64,000 nt of DNA, taken from NCBI GenBank assembly GCA_030065125.1, contig JASJDM010000001.1:186001-250000 (forward strand), given 5' to 3'. Numbering within the stretch: position 1 is the stretch's first letter; each line of letters begins with the position of its first letter. Shown here in pieces: positions 43,197 to 52,286 of the stretch. The notes under the pieces were generated by a model that saw only the letters and a program-made list of their open reading frames with translations, did no database searches and was not told the origin of the DNA. Both the position numbers and the translations under genes were made by a program. The DNA comes from Lysobacterales bacterium. Lineage in GTDB: Bacteria > Pseudomonadota > Gammaproteobacteria > Xanthomonadales > SZUA-38.

Positions 43197-44162
43197 CTAC
43201 AGCACCTCGGGATTGACCGGGTTGGGCGGACGTTCACCGTTGATCACGGCCGCCGCGTTTTCGGCTGCCATCACGCACATGCGGGTTCGGGTTTTCACAG
43301 AGGCACTGGCGATGTGGGGCGCCATCACCAGGTTGTCCAGGGCCAGCAGTTCCGGTGACACGGTTGGTTCATTTTCGTACACGTCCAGGCCGGCGCCGGC
43401 GATGCGCTTCTCCGCCAGGGCCTGAGCCAGGGCCAGTTCATCCACCACCGGTCCCCGGGAGGTATTGATCAGGATGGCGGTAGGCTTCATGAGGGCCAGC
43501 TCGGGCGCACCGACGCAGTGGCGGGTTTCGTCATTCAGCGGGACGTGGATGGACACAAAGTCGGACTCGCGAAACAGGGTTTCCTTGTCGACAAATTTCA
43601 GACCGAGCTGCTCGTCGTAGTCCGCGCGGACGGCGTCGTGATAGATCACCCGCATATCGAAGCCGGTGGCCCGCCGGGCCATACAGCGACCGATCCGCCC
43701 CAGGCCGTAAATACCCAGGGTGTGGTGGTTGATATCCTGGCCGCTGAACATGTCGATTTCCCACTGCTGCCAGCGACCGTCCCGCAGGAACCGTTCGGCC
43801 TCGGTGACCCGCCGCGCCGCGGCCATCAGCAGGGTGAAGGCAAAATCGGCAGTGGTGTCGGTCAATACGCCCGGAGTGTTGGACACTACAATCCCCCGCT
43901 CGGTGGCCGCGGCCACATCGATGTTGTCGAAGCCCACCGCCACGTTGGCAATGACCTTCAACTCCGGCGCGGCGTCCATCACCTCGGCATCCATGGGGTC
44001 GGTGAGCTGACACACCACGGCCTGCTTGTCGGCCACGGCGCGCAGCATAGTGTCCCGGTCCAGGCCGGAAGACGAATCGTGATACTCCAGCTCGCCACAG
44101 CCCTGCAGCAGTTCAATGGCTTCGGGATAGACGTGGCGGGTTACCAGGATTTTTTTTGTCAT
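43197..44162 (-). CDS. D-2-hydroxyacid dehydrogenase (glyoxylate/hydroxypyruvate reductase type)
   Basis: 321 residues. NAD-binding fold: LGIYGLGRIGRCMARRA (GxGxxG), HDAVRADYDE, and INTSRGPVVDELAL; substrate domain: NVAVGFDNIDVAAAT, TPGVLTDTTADFAFTLLMA; catalytic Arg/Glu/His set: NTSRGPVVD, LDVYENEP, MAPHIASAS (catalytic His). Most like glyoxylate/2-ketogluconate reductases (GhrB type), which reduce 2-oxo acids with NAD(P)H. AGGGGA precedes the ATG. The stop codon lies next to the REP-like hairpin, and the start faces the MITE-like intergenic region. Confidence 0.92.
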   Translation of the reverse strand: MTKKILVTRHVYPEAIELLQGCGELEYHDSSSGLDRDTMLRAVADKQAVVCQLTDPMDAEVMDAAPELKVIANVAVGFDNIDVAAATERGIVVSNTPGVLTDTTADFAFTLLMAAARRVTEAERFLRDGRWQQWEIDMFSGQDINHHTLGIYGLGRIGRCMARRATGFDMRVIYHDAVRADYDEQLGLKFVDKETLFRESDFVSIHVPLNDETRHCVGAPELALMKPTAILINTSRGPVVDELALAQALAEKRIAGAGLDVYENEPTVSPELLALDNLVMAPHIASASVKTRTRMCVMAAENAAAVINGERPPNPVNPEVL

Positions 44163-44267
44163 GTGCTTTCCCCTGCAGTGGGCCCCTAGTGTACTTGTCG
44201 AGAAGATTAGCGGTATTGCGGATTTTGGCTACAGACAACATGCGCCCAAGGGGCGCACTCCGAAAAA

Positions 44268-44472
44268 CGTCATCCTGAACTCGATTCAGGATCCATCTGA
44301 AATCCCGAAGCCGCATTCGTTCATACCTGCACTCCACCATAGCAAAGCCATCGTCAGTGACCCTCTCCGCCGCCGCCATGTTCGATCGAAGCCTCCGGTC
44401 AAACCGCTGTCTTGATCAAAGGCTATTCAGACCCAAATCTCAGATGGATCCTGAATCTAGTTCAGGATGACG
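44268..44472. mobile_element. MITE-like element copy 1 with 33-bp terminal inverted repeats
   Basis: The ends are CGTCATCCTGAACTCGATTC... and, on the other strand, the same sequence with one change (32 of 33 positions match). Each end itself contains the ATCCTGAA-nnn-TTCAGGAT hairpin. The 205-bp body (CCGAAGCCGC ... GCAAAGCCATCGTCAGTGACC ... GATCAAAGGCT) has no coding potential. This is the structure of a non-autonomous miniature inverted-repeat element. Confidence 0.7.
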
Positions 44473-44479
44473 GAATGTA

Positions 44480-44700
44480 GAACTCGATTCAGGATCCACC
44501 TGAAATCCCGAAGCCGCCTTAGTTCACACCTGCACTCCACCACAGCAAAGCCATCGTCAGTGACCCCCTCCGCCGCCGCCGTGTTTCGAACGAAACCTCC
44601 GACCAAACCACTGCCTGGATCAAAGGCTTTGCAGACCCCACTCTCTGATGGATCCTGAATCGATCCCGGATCGGGGTCCGGGACATGGTTCAGGATGACG
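44480..44700. mobile_element. MITE-like element copy 2, diverged, with an altered right end
   Basis: The body repeats copy 1 at an offset of 203 bp with scattered changes (for example AGTGACCC..CTCCGCCGCCGCC shared). Its left terminal repeat is missing the first ~9 bases, and its right end carries an extra ~20 bp (GATCCCGGATCGGGGTCC) inside the GGATCC...TTCAGGATGACG sequence. It therefore looks like a tandem duplication or nested second insertion. Confidence 0.65.
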
Positions 44701-44830
44701 GCGGGGGGGGCTGACAGCTGAGGGAGGATAACGACCGGGGTGAGGCTGAACGCTTGGGGGGAGGACAACGACTGGGTCGAGTTCACGCCTAGGGGTTGCG
44801 TAAACGTCTGGGGGAAGGATGACGTCTCCA
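44700..44830. repeat. G-rich degenerate repeat tract
   Basis: AGGATAACGAC, AGGACAACGAC and AGGATGACGTC occur about 40-55 bp apart within GGGG-rich sequence, between MITE copy 2 and the MscS gene. They look like eroded copies of the MITE end (AGGATGACG) rather than a functional array. Confidence 0.35.
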
Positions 44831-44875: not shown

Positions 44876-46132
44876 ATGGAACAACTGTTCTCCGACATCT
44901 CCACCTGGCTGACGGACCTGCCGCCATACGCAGTGGCCATAGCCGGTCTCCTGGCCCTGCTGCTGGTGGGCCTGATTGCCGATCGCATCATCCGGCCTCG
45001 GCTGTTGGCTATGGTCAGGCGCTTAGCCAAGGGCACGCGCAGTCAGTGGGACGACATGCTGGTGGAGCACAAGGTCTTCGCCAGGGTGGCGGAAACAGTG
45101 CCGGCCGTGGTGATCTACTTCGGAGCTCCGCTGGTGCCGGAACTCGACGCCCGGGTCATGGACATCATCCGCAACGTGGCGCTGGCCTACCTGGCGCTGA
45201 TGGTGACCCTGGCTCTCGGGGCGCTGCTGAGCGCGGTCAACGCCATCTACAAGACCTACCCCATTTCGCGGGAGCGCCCCCTCACTGGATTTATCCAGGT
45301 GGCCAAGATAGCGATTTACGTGCTGGGTGGCGTGGTGGTGATTTCCGCCCTGATCGACAAGTCGCCCCTGGTGCTGCTGACCGGCTTCGGCGCCATGACC
45401 GCCATCCTGCTGCTGGTGTTCAAGGACACCATCCTGTCCCTGGTGGCCAGCGTGCAGCTGACCAGCCTCGACATGGTGCGGGTGGGTGACTGGATCGAGA
45501 TGCCCCAGTACAACGCTGACGGCGACGTCATCGACGTGGCCCTGCACACGGTCAAGGTGCAGAACTGGGACAAGACCATCACCACCGTTCCGACCCATAA
45601 GCTGATCAGCGAGTCCTTCCGCAACTGGCGCGGCATGTCCGAGTCGGGCGGGCGCCGCATCAAGCGGTCTCTTTTCCTGGACGTCAGCTCGGTCCGCTTC
45701 CTGTCGGAGGACGAGGTCGAGCGGTTCAAGGAGTTTGCCCTGCTCAAGGGTTACATCGAGGACAAGCAGCGGGAACTGGCCGAATACAACGCCCGGATTC
45801 CCGACACCGCCAACGTCAACCTGCGGCGCCTGACCAACCTGGGCACCTTTCGGGCCTACCTGTTCAACTACCTGAAGCATCACCCGGAGATACATGACAG
45901 TATGACCCTGCTGGTGCGCCAGCTGCAGCCCGGCCCCACCGGCATCCCCATCGAGGTATACGCCTTTACCCGCACCACGGCCTGGGGAGAATACGAGCGG
46001 ATCCAGGCCGATATTTTCGACCACATCCTGGCCCAGTGCAGTGAGTTCGGGCTGCGGGTCTTCCAACAGCCCAGCGGGGCAGACCTGGATGCCCTGGGAT
46101 TGATCCAGCAGGGGCCGCAGCAACAACGGTAA
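44876..46132 (+). CDS. Mechanosensitive channel, MscS family (YbdG/MscM-like)
   Basis: 418 residues. N-terminal hydrophobic helices (AVAIAGLLALLLVGLIADRI, AETVPAVVIYFGAPLVP, VALAYLALMVTLALGALLSAV, ALIDKSPLVLLTGFGAMTAI) precede the MscS pore helix ILLLVFKDTILSLVASVQLT. VGDWIEMP, DVIDVALHTVKVQNWDKTITTVPTHKLI follows, the conserved beta-domain of MscS. The large C-terminal cytoplasmic domain with an extra insertion (residues ~250-300) fits the YbdG/MscM-like subfamily. Role: opening on osmotic downshock to release solute. The first methionine is used; no strong upstream ribosome site was seen. Confidence 0.92.
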   Translation: MEQLFSDISTWLTDLPPYAVAIAGLLALLLVGLIADRIIRPRLLAMVRRLAKGTRSQWDDMLVEHKVFARVAETVPAVVIYFGAPLVPELDARVMDIIRNVALAYLALMVTLALGALLSAVNAIYKTYPISRERPLTGFIQVAKIAIYVLGGVVVISALIDKSPLVLLTGFGAMTAILLLVFKDTILSLVASVQLTSLDMVRVGDWIEMPQYNADGDVIDVALHTVKVQNWDKTITTVPTHKLISESFRNWRGMSESGGRRIKRSLFLDVSSVRFLSEDEVERFKEFALLKGYIEDKQRELAEYNARIPDTANVNLRRLTNLGTFRAYLFNYLKHHPEIHDSMTLLVRQLQPGPTGIPIEVYAFTRTTAWGEYERIQADIFDHILAQCSEFGLRVFQQPSGADLDALGLIQQGPQQQR

Positions 46133-47178: not shown

Positions 47179-48339
47179 ATGACCACCCGACGACGATTTA
47201 TCCAGCTCACCTCCGCCAGCATGCTCGGGTTGGGACTGCACGGACTCAGCGCCGCTGACAGCCATGCCGGCAAAAGCGGCGGTTTGAACATCCTCATCCT
47301 GGGCGGCACCGGGTTCATCGGCCCCCATATGGTGAGACGGGCCCGGGAACGGGGTCACACCGTCACCCTGTTCAACCGCGGGCGCACCAATACCGACCTG
47401 TTCCCGGATGTCGAAACCCTGGTCGGGGACCGGGACAGCCAGCTGCAGGCCCTGGAGGGCCGTAAGTGGGATGCGGTCATCGACAACTCAGGCTACGTGC
47501 CCCGCCACGTGCGCGAGTCCGCTGGCCTGCTGAGCGAGGCCGCCAGACAGTACCTGTTTATTTCCTCGATTTCCGCCTACGGCAACTTCGAACAGCCAGG
47601 TATCGACGAGGACTACGTGCTGGGGACCATGGAAGACGAATCCGTGGAGCAGGTCACCGGTGCCACCTACGGCCCCATGAAAGCCCTGTGCGAAAAAGCC
47701 GCCGAGGAAGCGTTTCCGGGCCGCGCCACCATCGTGCGCCCGGGCTACATTGTTGGCCCCCGGGACAGCACCGACCGCTGGACCTATTGGCCGCTGCGCG
47801 TCGCCCGGGGCGGCACCGTGGTGGTGCCCGGGACGCCGGACGATCCGGTGCAGTTCATTGACGCCCGGGACCTGGCCGCTTTCACCATCCACGCCCTGGA
47901 AAATAACATCACCGGCCGGTTCAACGCGGTAGGCCCCGGCGAGCCCATGACCATGGGTGCCATGCTGGACGCCATGAAGGAGATCACCGAATCGGACGCC
48001 GGCTTTCAATGGGTCCCTGCCGAAACCCTGACCGAGAAAAACGCCTTCTTTCCGATCTGGGCATCACCGGAGGGCGACACGACCGGCGTGCACCTGGTCA
48101 GCAACAAGGCTGCCGTTGCAGCAGGCATGACCTTCCGACCCCTGGCCGAGACGGTGAAGGACACCCTGGCCTGGTGGGACGGGTTGGAAACGGAGAGACA
48201 ATCGGCCATGCGCTCCGGGCTGCGGGTGCTGGACGGACCGCCCGAGGGCATGCGGCCGGCGCCGGTCTCGCTGGAACAGCAGATGGAAATGGAAGCCAAG
48301 CTGGTGGAGGAACTCTGGAGTTCGCCGGCCGAAGGCTAG
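47179..48339 (+). CDS. Tat-exported NAD-dependent epimerase/reductase (extended SDR)
   Basis: 386 residues from ATG 47179, with AAAGGAG seven bases upstream. The N-terminus TTRRRFIQLTSASMLGLGL is a twin-arginine signal (RRRFIQ). The mature enzyme is an extended SDR: ILGGTGFIGPHMVRRA (TGxxGxxG), LFNRGRTN, ISSISAYG, TYGPMKALCE (YxxxK), VRPGYIVGPRD. An exported Tat-dependent SDR would have to carry its nucleotide across the membrane folded. The sequence resembles NAD-dependent epimerase/dehydratase proteins annotated with Tat signals. Substrate unknown. It is convergent with the PII-like gene. Confidence 0.85.
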   Translation: MTTRRRFIQLTSASMLGLGLHGLSAADSHAGKSGGLNILILGGTGFIGPHMVRRARERGHTVTLFNRGRTNTDLFPDVETLVGDRDSQLQALEGRKWDAVIDNSGYVPRHVRESAGLLSEAARQYLFISSISAYGNFEQPGIDEDYVLGTMEDESVEQVTGATYGPMKALCEKAAEEAFPGRATIVRPGYIVGPRDSTDRWTYWPLRVARGGTVVVPGTPDDPVQFIDARDLAAFTIHALENNITGRFNAVGPGEPMTMGAMLDAMKEITESDAGFQWVPAETLTEKNAFFPIWASPEGDTTGVHLVSNKAAVAAGMTFRPLAETVKDTLAWWDGLETERQSAMRSGLRVLDGPPEGMRPAPVSLEQQMEMEAKLVEELWSSPAEG

Positions 48340-48372
48340 CTGTGATCTGTCGAGAACAGGCCCAGCGGGCAA

Positions 48373-49563
48373 TCAGGACGCCTGGGCCGCGGTCTCGGCC
48401 CCCAGGTAGGTGTGCGCCCGGGTCACCGGCTGGGTATAAACGCAGGCGGTGGTAAGGCCCTGTTCGGCAATGTAATCCCGCACGGCCCGGGCCACGGTTT
48501 CTGCATGGCCGCGTTCCAGCACGATGTGCACAATGCCGCGCTCGGTGGTGAGCCGAACGCCCTGGCTGGTCTTTTCGCAGGCCTCTTCGATGAACTTGGC
48601 CTGGGCCACGTTGGCCCCCGGCGCGCCGGCCCGGGTGACGGTACGCATGATGTCCGGCGTGACCTTGCGTGCCGCCACGCAGCTCAGGATCACCTGGTCC
48701 TCCAGCGCCGTGCGCTGCCGGATCTTGCCGAACAGTTTGAGTCCCGCCGACTTGGCGGCGACACCCTCGATGACGCTGCGATCCCGCCAGTTGGTCCCGC
48801 CCTGGAGCTGATCGATGGCGGCGACAATCTGCTGCATGCTGGCCTGCTGCCGCACGCTGCCGTAGGTACTGGCGATGCTGATCAGGCCTTTCTCCACCGG
48901 CATTCGGAACAGGAAACCCCGGCCCGGCGTGTCAATGCGTCCGGCGGATACCATGGCCTCCACCACCGCGTCTGCGTCGGCGTTGTCCACGATCAGCAGC
49001 AGCTCTTCCTTGGTGCGTTTCTTGGTGATGCGCAGCCAGCCCAGCCGGTCCCGCAGCCCGCGGCCCTCGCAGTAATGGACGATGGGGCCATGGCCGCCGG
49101 CCTGCATGGCGGCCCGCGCCACCACGTCGCTCTGCTCCGGCTGAACGATGCAGAATATGGCGGTGAGGTTTTCCTTCAGGGTGTGGGAGGCGTCGCGACG
49201 ATCGGTCTGTTCCCGGCCACCGCTCCACAGCTGCAAATCCGAACTGTGAAAAAACTCTTCGCAGGGCACTGAAAATACGGCGCCGGCACCAGCCATATGC
49301 AGCCGGCCGCTGTCTACCACCTCCTCCATGATGTGGTCCACCTCCCAGTCCGGCACGTAGAACTGAAGAATGCTTTTCTCCGGGCTGACCAGGGGCAGGA
49401 TGGACTGATACCAGCGGTCCTTGGCCAGGGTGCCCCGGGCCTGCATCAGCAGCACGCTGGGATCGCCCTCGTTGAAAACCCGGTTGATAACGCGGCCGCT
49501 GCTGCGCCGGGGCAGCACGGCGGTGACGATGGACACCGCGTGATTTTCGATCATCTCGCTCAT
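48373..49563 (-). CDS. Three-domain PII-like protein (paired with DUF1538 membrane protein)
   Basis: 396 residues, no signal or membrane helix. Three tandem PII-type ferredoxin-like domains can be aligned. Domain 1 (~10-105): IVTAVLPRRSSGRVINRVF ... AGAGAVFSVPCEEFF. Domain 2 (~130-240): LTAIFCIVQPEQSDVVARAAMQAGG ... SAGRIDTPGRGFLFRMPVEKG, closest to classical GlnB ends. Domain 3 (~290-390): VILSCVAARKVTPDIMRTVTRAG ... GIVHIVLERGHAETVARAV. The three domains mimic a PII trimer in one chain. The start overlaps the DUF1538 gene's stop by 4 nt (ATGA), so both are translated together. Inference: a ligand-sensing soluble regulator of the membrane protein. Domain 1's ligand site differs from GlnB, so the ligand is open. 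Confidence 0.8.
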   Translation of the reverse strand: MSEMIENHAVSIVTAVLPRRSSGRVINRVFNEGDPSVLLMQARGTLAKDRWYQSILPLVSPEKSILQFYVPDWEVDHIMEEVVDSGRLHMAGAGAVFSVPCEEFFHSSDLQLWSGGREQTDRRDASHTLKENLTAIFCIVQPEQSDVVARAAMQAGGHGPIVHYCEGRGLRDRLGWLRITKKRTKEELLLIVDNADADAVVEAMVSAGRIDTPGRGFLFRMPVEKGLISIASTYGSVRQQASMQQIVAAIDQLQGGTNWRDRSVIEGVAAKSAGLKLFGKIRQRTALEDQVILSCVAARKVTPDIMRTVTRAGAPGANVAQAKFIEEACEKTSQGVRLTTERGIVHIVLERGHAETVARAVRDYIAEQGLTTACVYTQPVTRAHTYLGAETAAQAS

Positions 49564-51419
49564 GACGCGGCCTCCGCTTCCATTTCTTCCCGGGCCTGGC
49601 GCCGGGCCACCAGCCGGCCGATGAACAGCACCGTGATAATGGGCCCGACCGAGGCCAGGGCAAGGATGCCGAATCCGTCAATTACGCCGGGCACGTTGCT
49701 GCCAATGCCCAGGCCCATGGCCAGCACCAGCGGTACCGTAATGGGTCCGGTGGTCACACCGGCGCTGTCCCAGCCAAAGTTGACGAACTCCTCGGACGAG
49801 ATCCAGGTCAGGAACAGCAGCGCCAGGTAAGGCGGCACCAGCAGGTAGGCCAGGGGAATGTTGTAAGCCATCTTCAGGACGCCGGTGGCGATGCCCATGC
49901 CGACGCCGAACGCCACGGACTGCATCAGCAGCTTTTTCTTGAACGCCCCCACCGTGATCTTCTCCACGGTGTTTCCCAGGGCGTTCAGCGCGGGTTCGGC
50001 CAGGGTGGCGCCGTATCCCAGGAAGAAAGCGAACACCGCCGCGATGATCTTGCCGGTATTGCTGGATTCGAACAGCGGCTGCTCGACGCCCTGCATGCCC
50101 CAGGGCGTAATGGCGGCAAAGGTCCCCGGTACGTTGCTGCCCAGCTGGCTGCCCAGGGGCGTCAGGCCCAGGGCGATACCAATGACAAACAGGCACATTC
50201 CGCCCAGGGCGAAACCCAGGCCGATGGTGATCTCATCCAGGCTGCGGATCTTTTCACGCAGGATGAACCGCAGGGTCAGAAACAGGAACAGGCACAGGGG
50301 CACAATGGCCCGGGCCGCTTCGATGGCCGCCTGGCGGAAGGTGTCAACAATGGACTTCTGCTGATCCCACTGCTGGTCGCCCACCATGACCGGCCTTTCG
50401 TCCGGGATCTTCTGCAACACCACGGTGGGATCGGTCAGCACGATTTCACCGTCCTTCAGCACCGGGTCACCCCCCTGGAACACGATGGCGTAATCTTCGT
50501 CCGCCCGGGGGTCGGCCAGGAATTCCTGGAACTCTTCCTGGGTGATGCTGGCGGTGTTATCCCCCGCTGCATCGCCCTGGGGACCGGATTGCGCATCAGC
50601 GACCGCTGCTGATCCCTGGTAGTTGGGCTGGCCGTAGTAGTCGTCCGCGCCGTAGTGATACAGGCCCAGCAGCAGCACCGCCAGAATGGGGAACAGGGAG
50701 GCCAGGGTGACGATGCCAAAGCCGGCGTTCTTGGATTCGCCACTGCCGACGATCCGGCAGACCCCGACGCCCAGGGCCAGCACCAGGGGCACCGTCACCG
50801 GTCCCGTGGTGACCGCGCCGCAGTCCCAGGCCAGAGCCAGGATCGGATTGGTCACCGGGTCGAAGTGCATGAACAGGGTCAGGCCACTGAGAATCAACAC
50901 CCCGGGAATGATCAGCAGCTTCAGCGACCAGCCGTAGAAAAACCGCAGCACGCCCAGCGCCACGGCGCAGCCAACGCCAACCCCGACCGAGGCCACCAGC
51001 TGGCCGGAAAAATCATTCAGCAGGCTGTACAGCAGCGGCGCCTGGTCCGGCCGCACTCCGGCGCCGGCGGCCCGCAGCACGGAAATCGCAGGTTCGGCGA
51101 AGGTGGCGCCCACGCCCAGGATAAAGGCAAAGGTCAGGATGATGGGCAGCGAGGAATTGCGCGGCAGTACCGCGCCGATGATCTCACCCAGCGGCATCAG
51201 GCCCAGCCGCAGACCTTCCATGAAAAACATCAGCCCTACGGCCACCACCAGCAGGCCGATCCCGATCATGCCGGCGTAGACGATGGGCAAGCCCAGCACC
51301 AGGATCTGGAACGCGATCAGGTACACCACAATGAACCAGATGCTCTTGACCTGTTCCAGGAAATTTTCAGCGAAATAGGGAAACAGAATCCGAGCGGTAT
51401 CGGCAATGCTGAGCTTCAT
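49560..51419 (-). CDS. DUF1538 membrane protein with internal duplication (probable transporter)
   Basis: 619 residues with about 14 hydrophobic helices. Two homologous halves are plain: ATFAEPAISVLRAAG and ATLAEPALNALGNTV; DCGAVTTGPVTVPLVLALGVG and DSAGVTTGPITVPLVLAMGLG; FGIVTLASLFPILAVLLLGL and FGILALASVGPIITVLFIG. The matching VTTGPxTVPLVLA blocks in both halves look like a pseudo-symmetric transport core. Between halves lies a polar loop (YYGQPNYQGSAAVADAQSG...). The gene is first of a two-gene operon with the three-domain PII-like gene. Established knowledge: DUF1538 has no assigned function. Inference: a membrane carrier gated by its PII-like partner, like SbtA/SbtB or AmtB/GlnK pairs. 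Confidence 0.85.
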   Translation of the reverse strand: MKLSIADTARILFPYFAENFLEQVKSIWFIVVYLIAFQILVLGLPIVYAGMIGIGLLVVAVGLMFFMEGLRLGLMPLGEIIGAVLPRNSSLPIILTFAFILGVGATFAEPAISVLRAAGAGVRPDQAPLLYSLLNDFSGQLVASVGVGVGCAVALGVLRFFYGWSLKLLIIPGVLILSGLTLFMHFDPVTNPILALAWDCGAVTTGPVTVPLVLALGVGVCRIVGSGESKNAGFGIVTLASLFPILAVLLLGLYHYGADDYYGQPNYQGSAAVADAQSGPQGDAAGDNTASITQEEFQEFLADPRADEDYAIVFQGGDPVLKDGEIVLTDPTVVLQKIPDERPVMVGDQQWDQQKSIVDTFRQAAIEAARAIVPLCLFLFLTLRFILREKIRSLDEITIGLGFALGGMCLFVIGIALGLTPLGSQLGSNVPGTFAAITPWGMQGVEQPLFESSNTGKIIAAVFAFFLGYGATLAEPALNALGNTVEKITVGAFKKKLLMQSVAFGVGMGIATGVLKMAYNIPLAYLLVPPYLALLFLTWISSEEFVNFGWDSAGVTTGPITVPLVLAMGLGIGSNVPGVIDGFGILALASVGPIITVLFIGRLVARRQAREEMEAEAAS

Positions 51420-51542
51420 GCAGATTCAATCCCCCTGTTGCCTGAACGGTTGACCAAGACGACGCCCAGGTCGGCCAGACCGGTCCCCAGGCTTATGCCA
51501 CAAATCGGCGCCGGCGGCAAAAACTTTAGCGTTTTTGGGGGG

Positions 51543-52286
51543 TTAGTGCACCCGGCGCAGAAACTTGTAGCCCAGCGCGGTCACCACCAGCACCAGGAAG
51601 TAGGTCAGTGGCCAGGTACGGGTCCAGGTGGGGCCGACGGTGTGCAGCTGACGGGATTCCAGGCCGATTTCCACCAGCTCCAGCGGCGAACCTGCCGGCA
51701 GATAACCGCCGGGATTGGCGATGAGCCAGTTCCACCACTGCCGCGCATGCAGCACCGGCGTGGGGTGCTGCCCATCCAGGTTAAACAGGGGTTTTGCGTC
51801 AGCCGCAACCTCCAGGCTTTTCGCCGGCCACGGCGCCCGGTAGCTGCCCGGGTCCGCCGCAGGCTCCAACGCTTCGGGCAGGACTTCCGCCGGCGTCAGG
51901 CGCAGCTCCACGGGGGCACCGGCCTCGGGCGCCATGTAGCCGTAATGGTTGGAGATCCATGCCATGACAAAAATCACCGGAATCCCGGCCCACAGGGCTG
52001 GGCCCAGGGCCAGGCGCAGATGCCGCAGGGAAAGTCCCAGACTGCGCCTGATCAGCGGCCACATCTCGTTGAATTCACCGTCGAAGCTGTTGATGGCCGC
52101 CTGGGATTGTTTGATCTCTCCCTTCAATTCCGCCAGGGCGTCCTGCCGCGACAGAAGCGCATACAGCCACATGGACAACACGCCGGAGACGGCGCCCCAC
52201 AGGGCCACGCGCAGCAGAGCCGGCAGGAATGCCAGCAGCTGATCGATCCAGGAAAACAGGGGTGCCGGCAGGTCGAACAGACCCAT
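51543..52286 (-). CDS. Membrane protein of unknown function (two-pass, DUF-type)
   Basis: 247 residues with three hydrophobic helices: LLRVALWGAVSGVLSMWLYAL (~20), LGPALWAGIPVIFVMAWI (~95) and TYFLVLVVTALGYKFL at the C-terminus. A coiled segment (ALAELKGEIKQSQAAINSF) lies between the first two, and a ~100-residue exterior domain precedes the last. I recognise no family. It follows the small YIGPGAG protein gene at 8 nt and precedes the DUF1538 gene by 123 nt, so it may belong to either group. Confidence 0.6.
   Translation of the reverse strand: MGLFDLPAPLFSWIDQLLAFLPALLRVALWGAVSGVLSMWLYALLSRQDALAELKGEIKQSQAAINSFDGEFNEMWPLIRRSLGLSLRHLRLALGPALWAGIPVIFVMAWISNHYGYMAPEAGAPVELRLTPAEVLPEALEPAADPGSYRAPWPAKSLEVAADAKPLFNLDGQHPTPVLHARQWWNWLIANPGGYLPAGSPLELVEIGLESRQLHTVGPTWTRTWPLTYFLVLVVTALGYKFLRRVH

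Follow-up and report, generated by a model that had tools for sequence, protein, structure and literature searches.

The window, a stretch of 64,000 nucleotides from a Lysobacterales bacterium (assembly GCA_030065125.1, contig JASJDM010000001.1), carries a two-gene pair on its reverse strand, in which a gene for a DUF1538 protein of 619 aa is followed by one for a PII-like protein. The extent assigned to the pair in an earlier note is exact. The genes and their junction are:

49560 to 51419, reverse strand: putative fused UmpA-UmpB (two DUF1538 units) membrane protein, 619 aa (Pfam, NCBIfam, AF2)
48373 to 49563, reverse strand: three-domain PII-like protein, 396 aa (Pfam, hhalign, AF2, Foldseek; 45 homologous loci)
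49560 to 49563, reverse strand: ATGA overlap of the umpAB stop and the PII-like gene start (read directly in the sequence)
49571 to 49575, reverse strand: GGAGG Shine-Dalgarno sequence, 7 nt before the PII-like ATG and within the end of umpAB (read directly)

The DUF1538 gene ends in TCATGA, and the ATG within this sequence begins the 396-aa gene. The PII-like gene therefore does start in the last codon of the DUF1538 gene, as had been noted, and this overlap and the GGAGG sequence support the proposed translational coupling of the two. Overlaps of 1 to 11 nt are found in 32 of the 44 three-domain loci with UmpAB upstream. A consensus promoter scan of 48200-51700 gave no match, which is uninformative.

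Apart from UmpAB, the three-domain loci have no conserved neighbours; neither a window neighbour nor any other gene is present in more than 4 of them. With no further recurring gene, a larger conserved cluster is ruled out, and the opposite-strand and shifted-frame ORFs that do recur are shadows of the two genes. There is no PHROGs match, and a phage origin is rejected. An MscS-type mechanosensitive channel gene lies a few kb away in the window (44876-46132, forward strand); beside the other three-domain loci no homologue of it was found. Translated stretches such as VILNSIQDPSE are found both at window 44113-44786 and at L004:350-869, suggesting that the genome holds an interspersed DNA repeat.

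The larger protein was described in the earlier note as an uncharacterised carrier. This has to be corrected, since its halves match UmpA and UmpB, for which Na+(Li+,K+)/H+ antiport has been shown experimentally in Halomonas (PMC5484666). In Halomonas zhaodongensis the two form a heterodimer with a pH optimum of 9.0, and neither UmpA nor UmpB works alone; the strain used to demonstrate antiport was E. coli KNabc (PMC5484666). Within the window protein, Pfam DUF1538 matches two stretches (365 bits, E 1.1e-109). Each half has its own set of motifs, TFAEPA or TLAEPA with VTTGP[VI]TVPLVLA, so the AT[FL]AEPA and VTTGP[VI]TVPLVLA duplication reported before is upheld. The NCBIfam models (NF041627/NF041628) match UmpA in the first half (8.7e-65) and UmpB in the second (2.3e-49), at scores under the equivalog cut-offs (218 of 490 bits and 168 of 500 bits). 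The two-gene UmpA of the same genome is likewise under its cut-off (320 of 490 bits). The window shares with the Halomonas proteins the two homologous DUF1538 units, matched respectively by its two halves, and differs in having one chain, an acidic stretch between the halves and a triple PII gene attached. From these matches, the gene is best seen as a natural fusion of umpA and umpB, which encode two subunits of an antiporter family. Its parts are:

50649 to 51419, reverse strand: UmpA-like half, residues 1-257, with breaks in its helices at TFAEPA and at VTTGPVT (NCBIfam, AF2, alignment)
50352 to 50648, reverse strand: acidic stretch of 99 aa that joins the halves (residues 258-356), with a net charge of -15 and a probable periplasmic location
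49563 to 50351, reverse strand: UmpB-like half, residues 357-619, with a probable cytoplasmic C terminus (NCBIfam, AF2, alignment, charged loops)

In the confident AF2 model of UmpAB (pLDDT 82.9, pTM 0.84), the AEPA and TTGP motifs interrupt helices in both halves. Foldseek of this model against the PDB gave no match with E <0.001, ruling out a known fold at that threshold. By counts of charged loops in 46 fusions, both termini fall on the inside and the stretch that joins the halves on the outside. With this arrangement the two halves would be inverted relative to each other, and the acidic stretch is probably periplasmic. The stretch is 96-107 aa long in 31 of the 32 aligned fusions of the three-PII type, with 161 aa in the remaining one (L066), and in each of the other 14 gammaproteobacterial fusions it measures 25-34 aa; the window type has roughly 70 extra residues here, in what is probably a periplasmic loop. 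Among 369 genomes of the class, homologues of the acidic stretch are found in exactly the 6 genomes that hold a full three-domain PII. The insert and the PII triplication share one lineage of origin, so their joint occurrence may go back to a single event and does not prove interaction statistically.

PII units normally assemble as a trimer of separate copies. In the 396-aa protein, Pfam P-II matches the middle domain only (residues 135-225, scoring 32.7 bits where the cut-off is 25); the first and third domains of the window protein give no match, and those of some orthologues match weakly. As only D2 is detected in this way, the thirds were examined separately. The features of the chain are:

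49228 to 49548, reverse strand: PII domain D1, residues 6-112, with invariant R43-G44-T45, W51, P61 and G94 (hhalign, PDB profiles, conservation)
48859 to 49188, reverse strand: PII domain D2, residues 126-235, the most conserved and the only one detected by Pfam (Pfam, hhalign, alignment)
49006 to 49068, reverse strand: T-loop of D2, residues 166-186, EGRGLRDRLGWLRITKKRTKE, invariant at 8 of its 21 positions across 47 proteins
48904 to 48939, reverse strand: B-loop of D2, residues 209-220, PGRG core, G214 in 46 of 47 and G216 in 47 of 47
48715 to 48858, reverse strand: linker between D2 and D3 with a conserved helix, MQQI..AID.L.G...WRD (alignment, AF2)
48388 to 48714, reverse strand: PII domain D3, residues 284-392, with both the T-loop and the B-loop degenerate (hhalign, PDB profiles, alignment)

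Aligned by hhalign with the single-domain PII proteins linked to DUF1538, all three thirds prove to be PII homologues, with probabilities of 98.2% (D1), 99.7% (D2) and 98.3% (D3), against at most 5.8% for column-shuffled control profiles. In PDB profile searches with D1 and D3 each taken alone, the best matches of D1 (E 0.001) and D3 (E 0.0004) are PII, as are nearly all of the listed matches of either. The shuffled controls and these separate searches rule out a chance likeness of D1 and D3 to PII. The AF2 model of the chain, built with 47 sequences (mean pLDDT 82.8, pTM 0.81), is predicted to have three beta-alpha-beta-beta-alpha-beta units, each with the ferredoxin-like fold, and the top Foldseek matches of the model are GlnK/PII. 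Pfam for D2, hhalign, the PDB profiles and the predicted structure therefore agree with the original observation of three tandem PII-fold domains in one chain. The length of 374-411 aa at all 45 loci fits no homotrimer of single-domain chains, the usual form in the superfamily; there are three domains per chain. The pTM of 0.81 implies that the three units would have a defined packing, and from this value we infer a pseudo-trimer in a three-fold ring. The linker between D2 and D3 (invariant residues Q245, D251, G255, W259 and R260) has a helix that is absent from the single-domain PII proteins.

The three domains have not been kept equally. Over the 47 sequences, the mean majority frequency and number of invariant residues are 0.67 and 13 in D2, 0.54 and 6 in D1, and 0.44 and 1 in D3. 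The T-loop values are 0.86 for D2, 0.67 for D1 (5 of 20 positions invariant) and 0.37 for D3, the loops of which have no invariant positions. The tip of the D2 T-loop has low confidence in the AF2 model. The B-loop glycines are kept in D2, partly in D1 and not in D3. The idea of three non-identical ligand sites holds in part, as D2 keeps most of what is conserved and D1 some of it, but the T-loop and B-loop conservation of D3 has been lost. When D1-D3 are aligned with a pair of GlnB-type proteins from this genome, the ATP-phosphate residues of GlnB (Lys90 and the C-loop arginines) and its T-loop tyrosine prove absent or not conserved in them. With these residues missing, GlnB-type sensing of 2-oxoglutarate and ATP, and uridylylation, are unlikely for the three-domain PII.

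PII genes lie beside DUF1538 genes far more widely than this pair. When 369 genomes of the class were searched with the PII protein, 6 proved to have a full-length copy with three domains, the window genome among them. Single-domain matches with retrieved surroundings (n=14) all adjoin DUF1538, 13 of them beside fused UmpAB and one (L047) beside a seemingly interrupted DUF1538 ORF. The three-domain PII loci in GTDB genomes number 45, all gammaproteobacterial as far as record titles tell, and UmpAB is immediately upstream in all 44 with upstream DNA. At two of them the UmpAB frame is interrupted and the PII gene open, by a frame change at L041/L082:3113-5001 and an in-frame stop at L083:3118-5004; these could be sequence error, decay or a true split.

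Where DUF1538 loci of the class were picked by a match to the carrier, PII and a CBS-domain gene are downstream in 40 of 40. A phylum-level draw, overlapping the class sample by a few genomes, has PII in 29 of 30 DUF1538 loci, the exception (L177) being without PII within the retrieved stretch. All five annotated plasmid records viewed have the pair, including ones from Bacillota and Alphaproteobacteria. Automatic annotation names such neighbours 'P-II family nitrogen regulator' and 'DUF1538 domain-containing protein'. The adjacency of carrier and PII genes is that of PII-gated carriers, and the proposed co-occurrence of the two families is confirmed (40/40 class loci and 44/44 three-domain loci); with 29/30 in the phylum-level draw, chance neighbourhood is ruled out. 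A second DUF1538 locus in the same genome (G000 contig C22, L059:4549-6829, reverse strand) is a tight operon of separate umpA, umpB, one-domain PII and CBS genes, and is likely to be the ordinary form of the system. Clostridial plasmids (L146:3087-5281, L147:2265-4416 and L148:2265-4416) have a fused DUF1538 gene followed by a two-domain PII chain of 222-224 aa, although the first domain of that in L146 is matched weakly. PII domains have therefore been joined in one chain beside fused UmpAB outside the Gammaproteobacteria also.

Five types can be recognised. Type I has umpA, umpB, a one-domain PII and CBS, the last not found in some type I loci of the phylum draw and in Alphaproteobacteria. 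Type II has a fusion of mostly 583-607 aa, a one-domain PII and no CBS. Type III, that of the window, has a fusion of about 620 aa or more, the 96-107-aa stretch between the halves, a three-domain PII and no CBS. Type IV has a short fusion of 502-521 aa, a one-domain PII and CBS, and type V is the clostridial fusion with a two-domain PII. In the alignment, the size of the inter-half stretch splits type III from types II and IV without exception. A CBS profile search of the retrieved type II and III loci found none, which rules out relocation of the CBS gene nearby in the window type. The umpA-umpB-PII-CBS operons (L059 and the 40 class loci) share the carrier family and the wider PII group with the window; they differ in a two-gene carrier or short fusion, a one-domain PII and the presence of CBS.

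With the stretch between the halves removed, the carrier tree joins types II and III (SH-aLRT 99) apart from I and IV. In a PII tree of 21 loci, which is short (107 columns) and weak at its deep forks, D1, D2 and D3 each form one clade (SH-aLRT 100, 98 and 100), so that the triplication goes back to one event that predates the divergence of these lineages. The umpA-umpB-PII operon, often with CBS, is the general form and the three-PII type a rare derivative found only in Gammaproteobacteria.

Known systems offer a model for what the pair may do. In GlnK-AmtB and SbtB-SbtA the T-loop enters or plugs the carrier (PMC10710835, PMC8352866). Like the window, the bicarbonate carrier system SbtA-SbtB has carrier and PII-like genes in one operon, a T-loop and possible nucleotide clefts between units; unlike it, the system pairs a homotrimeric SbtB with a carrier that is itself trimeric, where the window has three diverged domains per chain and an unrelated carrier family. 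AmtB-GlnK also has linked carrier and PII genes, and T-loop gating is the working model. GlnK, however, has one domain, with ATP/2-oxoglutarate residues of the GlnB type and a tyrosine that is uridylylated, where the D2 T-loop of the window has no tyrosine and the domain lacks these GlnB-type residues.

The preferred reading, which the analysis makes somewhat better than an even bet, is a two-gene module in which a pseudo-trimeric PII docks on the fused cation/proton antiporter UmpAB and restrains or tunes antiport mainly through the D2 T-loop. The membrane protein would be a fused UmpA-UmpB antiporter of monovalent cations (Na+/K+/Li+) and protons, and its 396-aa partner a cytoplasmic single-chain pseudo-trimer made in step with it by translational coupling. 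The partner would dock on the cytoplasmic face of UmpAB, where the conserved T-loop of D2 would insert into the carrier so that antiport is restrained or tuned, with some help from D1 and with D3 as a scaffold. The affinity of the partner for the carrier would depend on a small ligand, such as a nucleotide, bound in the inter-domain clefts. By analogy with T-loop plugging, this would be a ligand-controlled brake. Direct contact, the class of ligand, inhibition over activation and the role of the periplasmic stretch are what we infer here.

The 4.2-kb clone in which UmpAB was described has four ORFs (truncated ORF1, ORF2, umpA and umpB), none of them PII, and the main text of that paper makes no mention of PII (PMC5484666). 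Because this clone works nonetheless, its own PII is not needed for transport, which favours a brake or tuner. E. coli has PII proteins of its own, which weakens this argument. Against gating, the PII-controlled carriers known so far are trimers and UmpAB has been reported only as a UmpA-UmpB heterodimer; the use of PII on transporters appears restricted to carriers able to function as trimers (review PMC10710835). A tentative proposal, with the balance somewhat against it, is that a single-chain pseudo-trimer in which only one T-loop is fully kept gates a single-chain cation/proton antiporter that is not trimeric.

Antiport has been shown for a distant two-gene relative and the equivalog cut-offs are unmet, so the substrates of the window carrier may differ. 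It is possible, if unlikely, that it moves something other than monovalent cations, such as an anion or organic solute, under PII control. Types II and III do form a long-branched clade separate from two-gene UmpA and UmpB, and the fold resembles no solved structure; yet the AEP and TT-x-x-[VI]T-x-PL core is kept in all carrier types, and cation/proton antiport is what the one family member tested so far carries out (PMC5484666). Rather improbable is a sensor relay, in which UmpAB recruits or releases the three-domain PII according to ion or pH state and the PII controls other targets. PII proteins can have multiple targets (review PMC10710835), and there are separate conserved surfaces on D1, D2 and the D2-D3 linker, but the strict one-to-one linkage with the carrier and the lack of any other conserved neighbour gene argue against it. 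Least probable is an assembly or stability factor, a chaperone-like subunit of UmpAB without ligand sensing, which would suit the lost canonical ligand residues, the degenerate D3 loops and a gene overlap typical of complex subunits but not the strongly conserved flexible T-loop and B-loop glycines of D2, nor two-gene UmpAB working in E. coli without a co-cloned PII. The T-loop and B-loop are the sensing and acting parts of PII proteins.

Few signal proteins of bacteria are as widespread as PII. PII-gated carriers and the UmpAB antiporter are known separately; in the literature within reach, which took in few subscription journals, no paper links PII to DUF1538, and neither the umpA-umpB-PII-CBS operon nor the three-PII chain is described. 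It appears that bacteria control UmpAB-type exchangers by a PII switch. The triple PII is a natural covalent trimer with unequal arms, in which mutation of a single domain can show the working arm, as is not the case in a homotrimer, and a cultured host of this type is available in Sinimarinibacterium flocculans DSM 104150 (L068). If the tentative proposal above is true, the gating of a non-trimeric carrier by a single chain would break the trimer-only rule stated for PII-regulated carriers, and monovalent cation/proton antiport would be a widespread PII-controlled process. The presence of PII beside almost every sampled copy of this antiporter family, for which Na+(K+)/H+ exchange has been measured, suggests direct control of cation and pH balance by nucleotide or metabolic signals in many bacteria.
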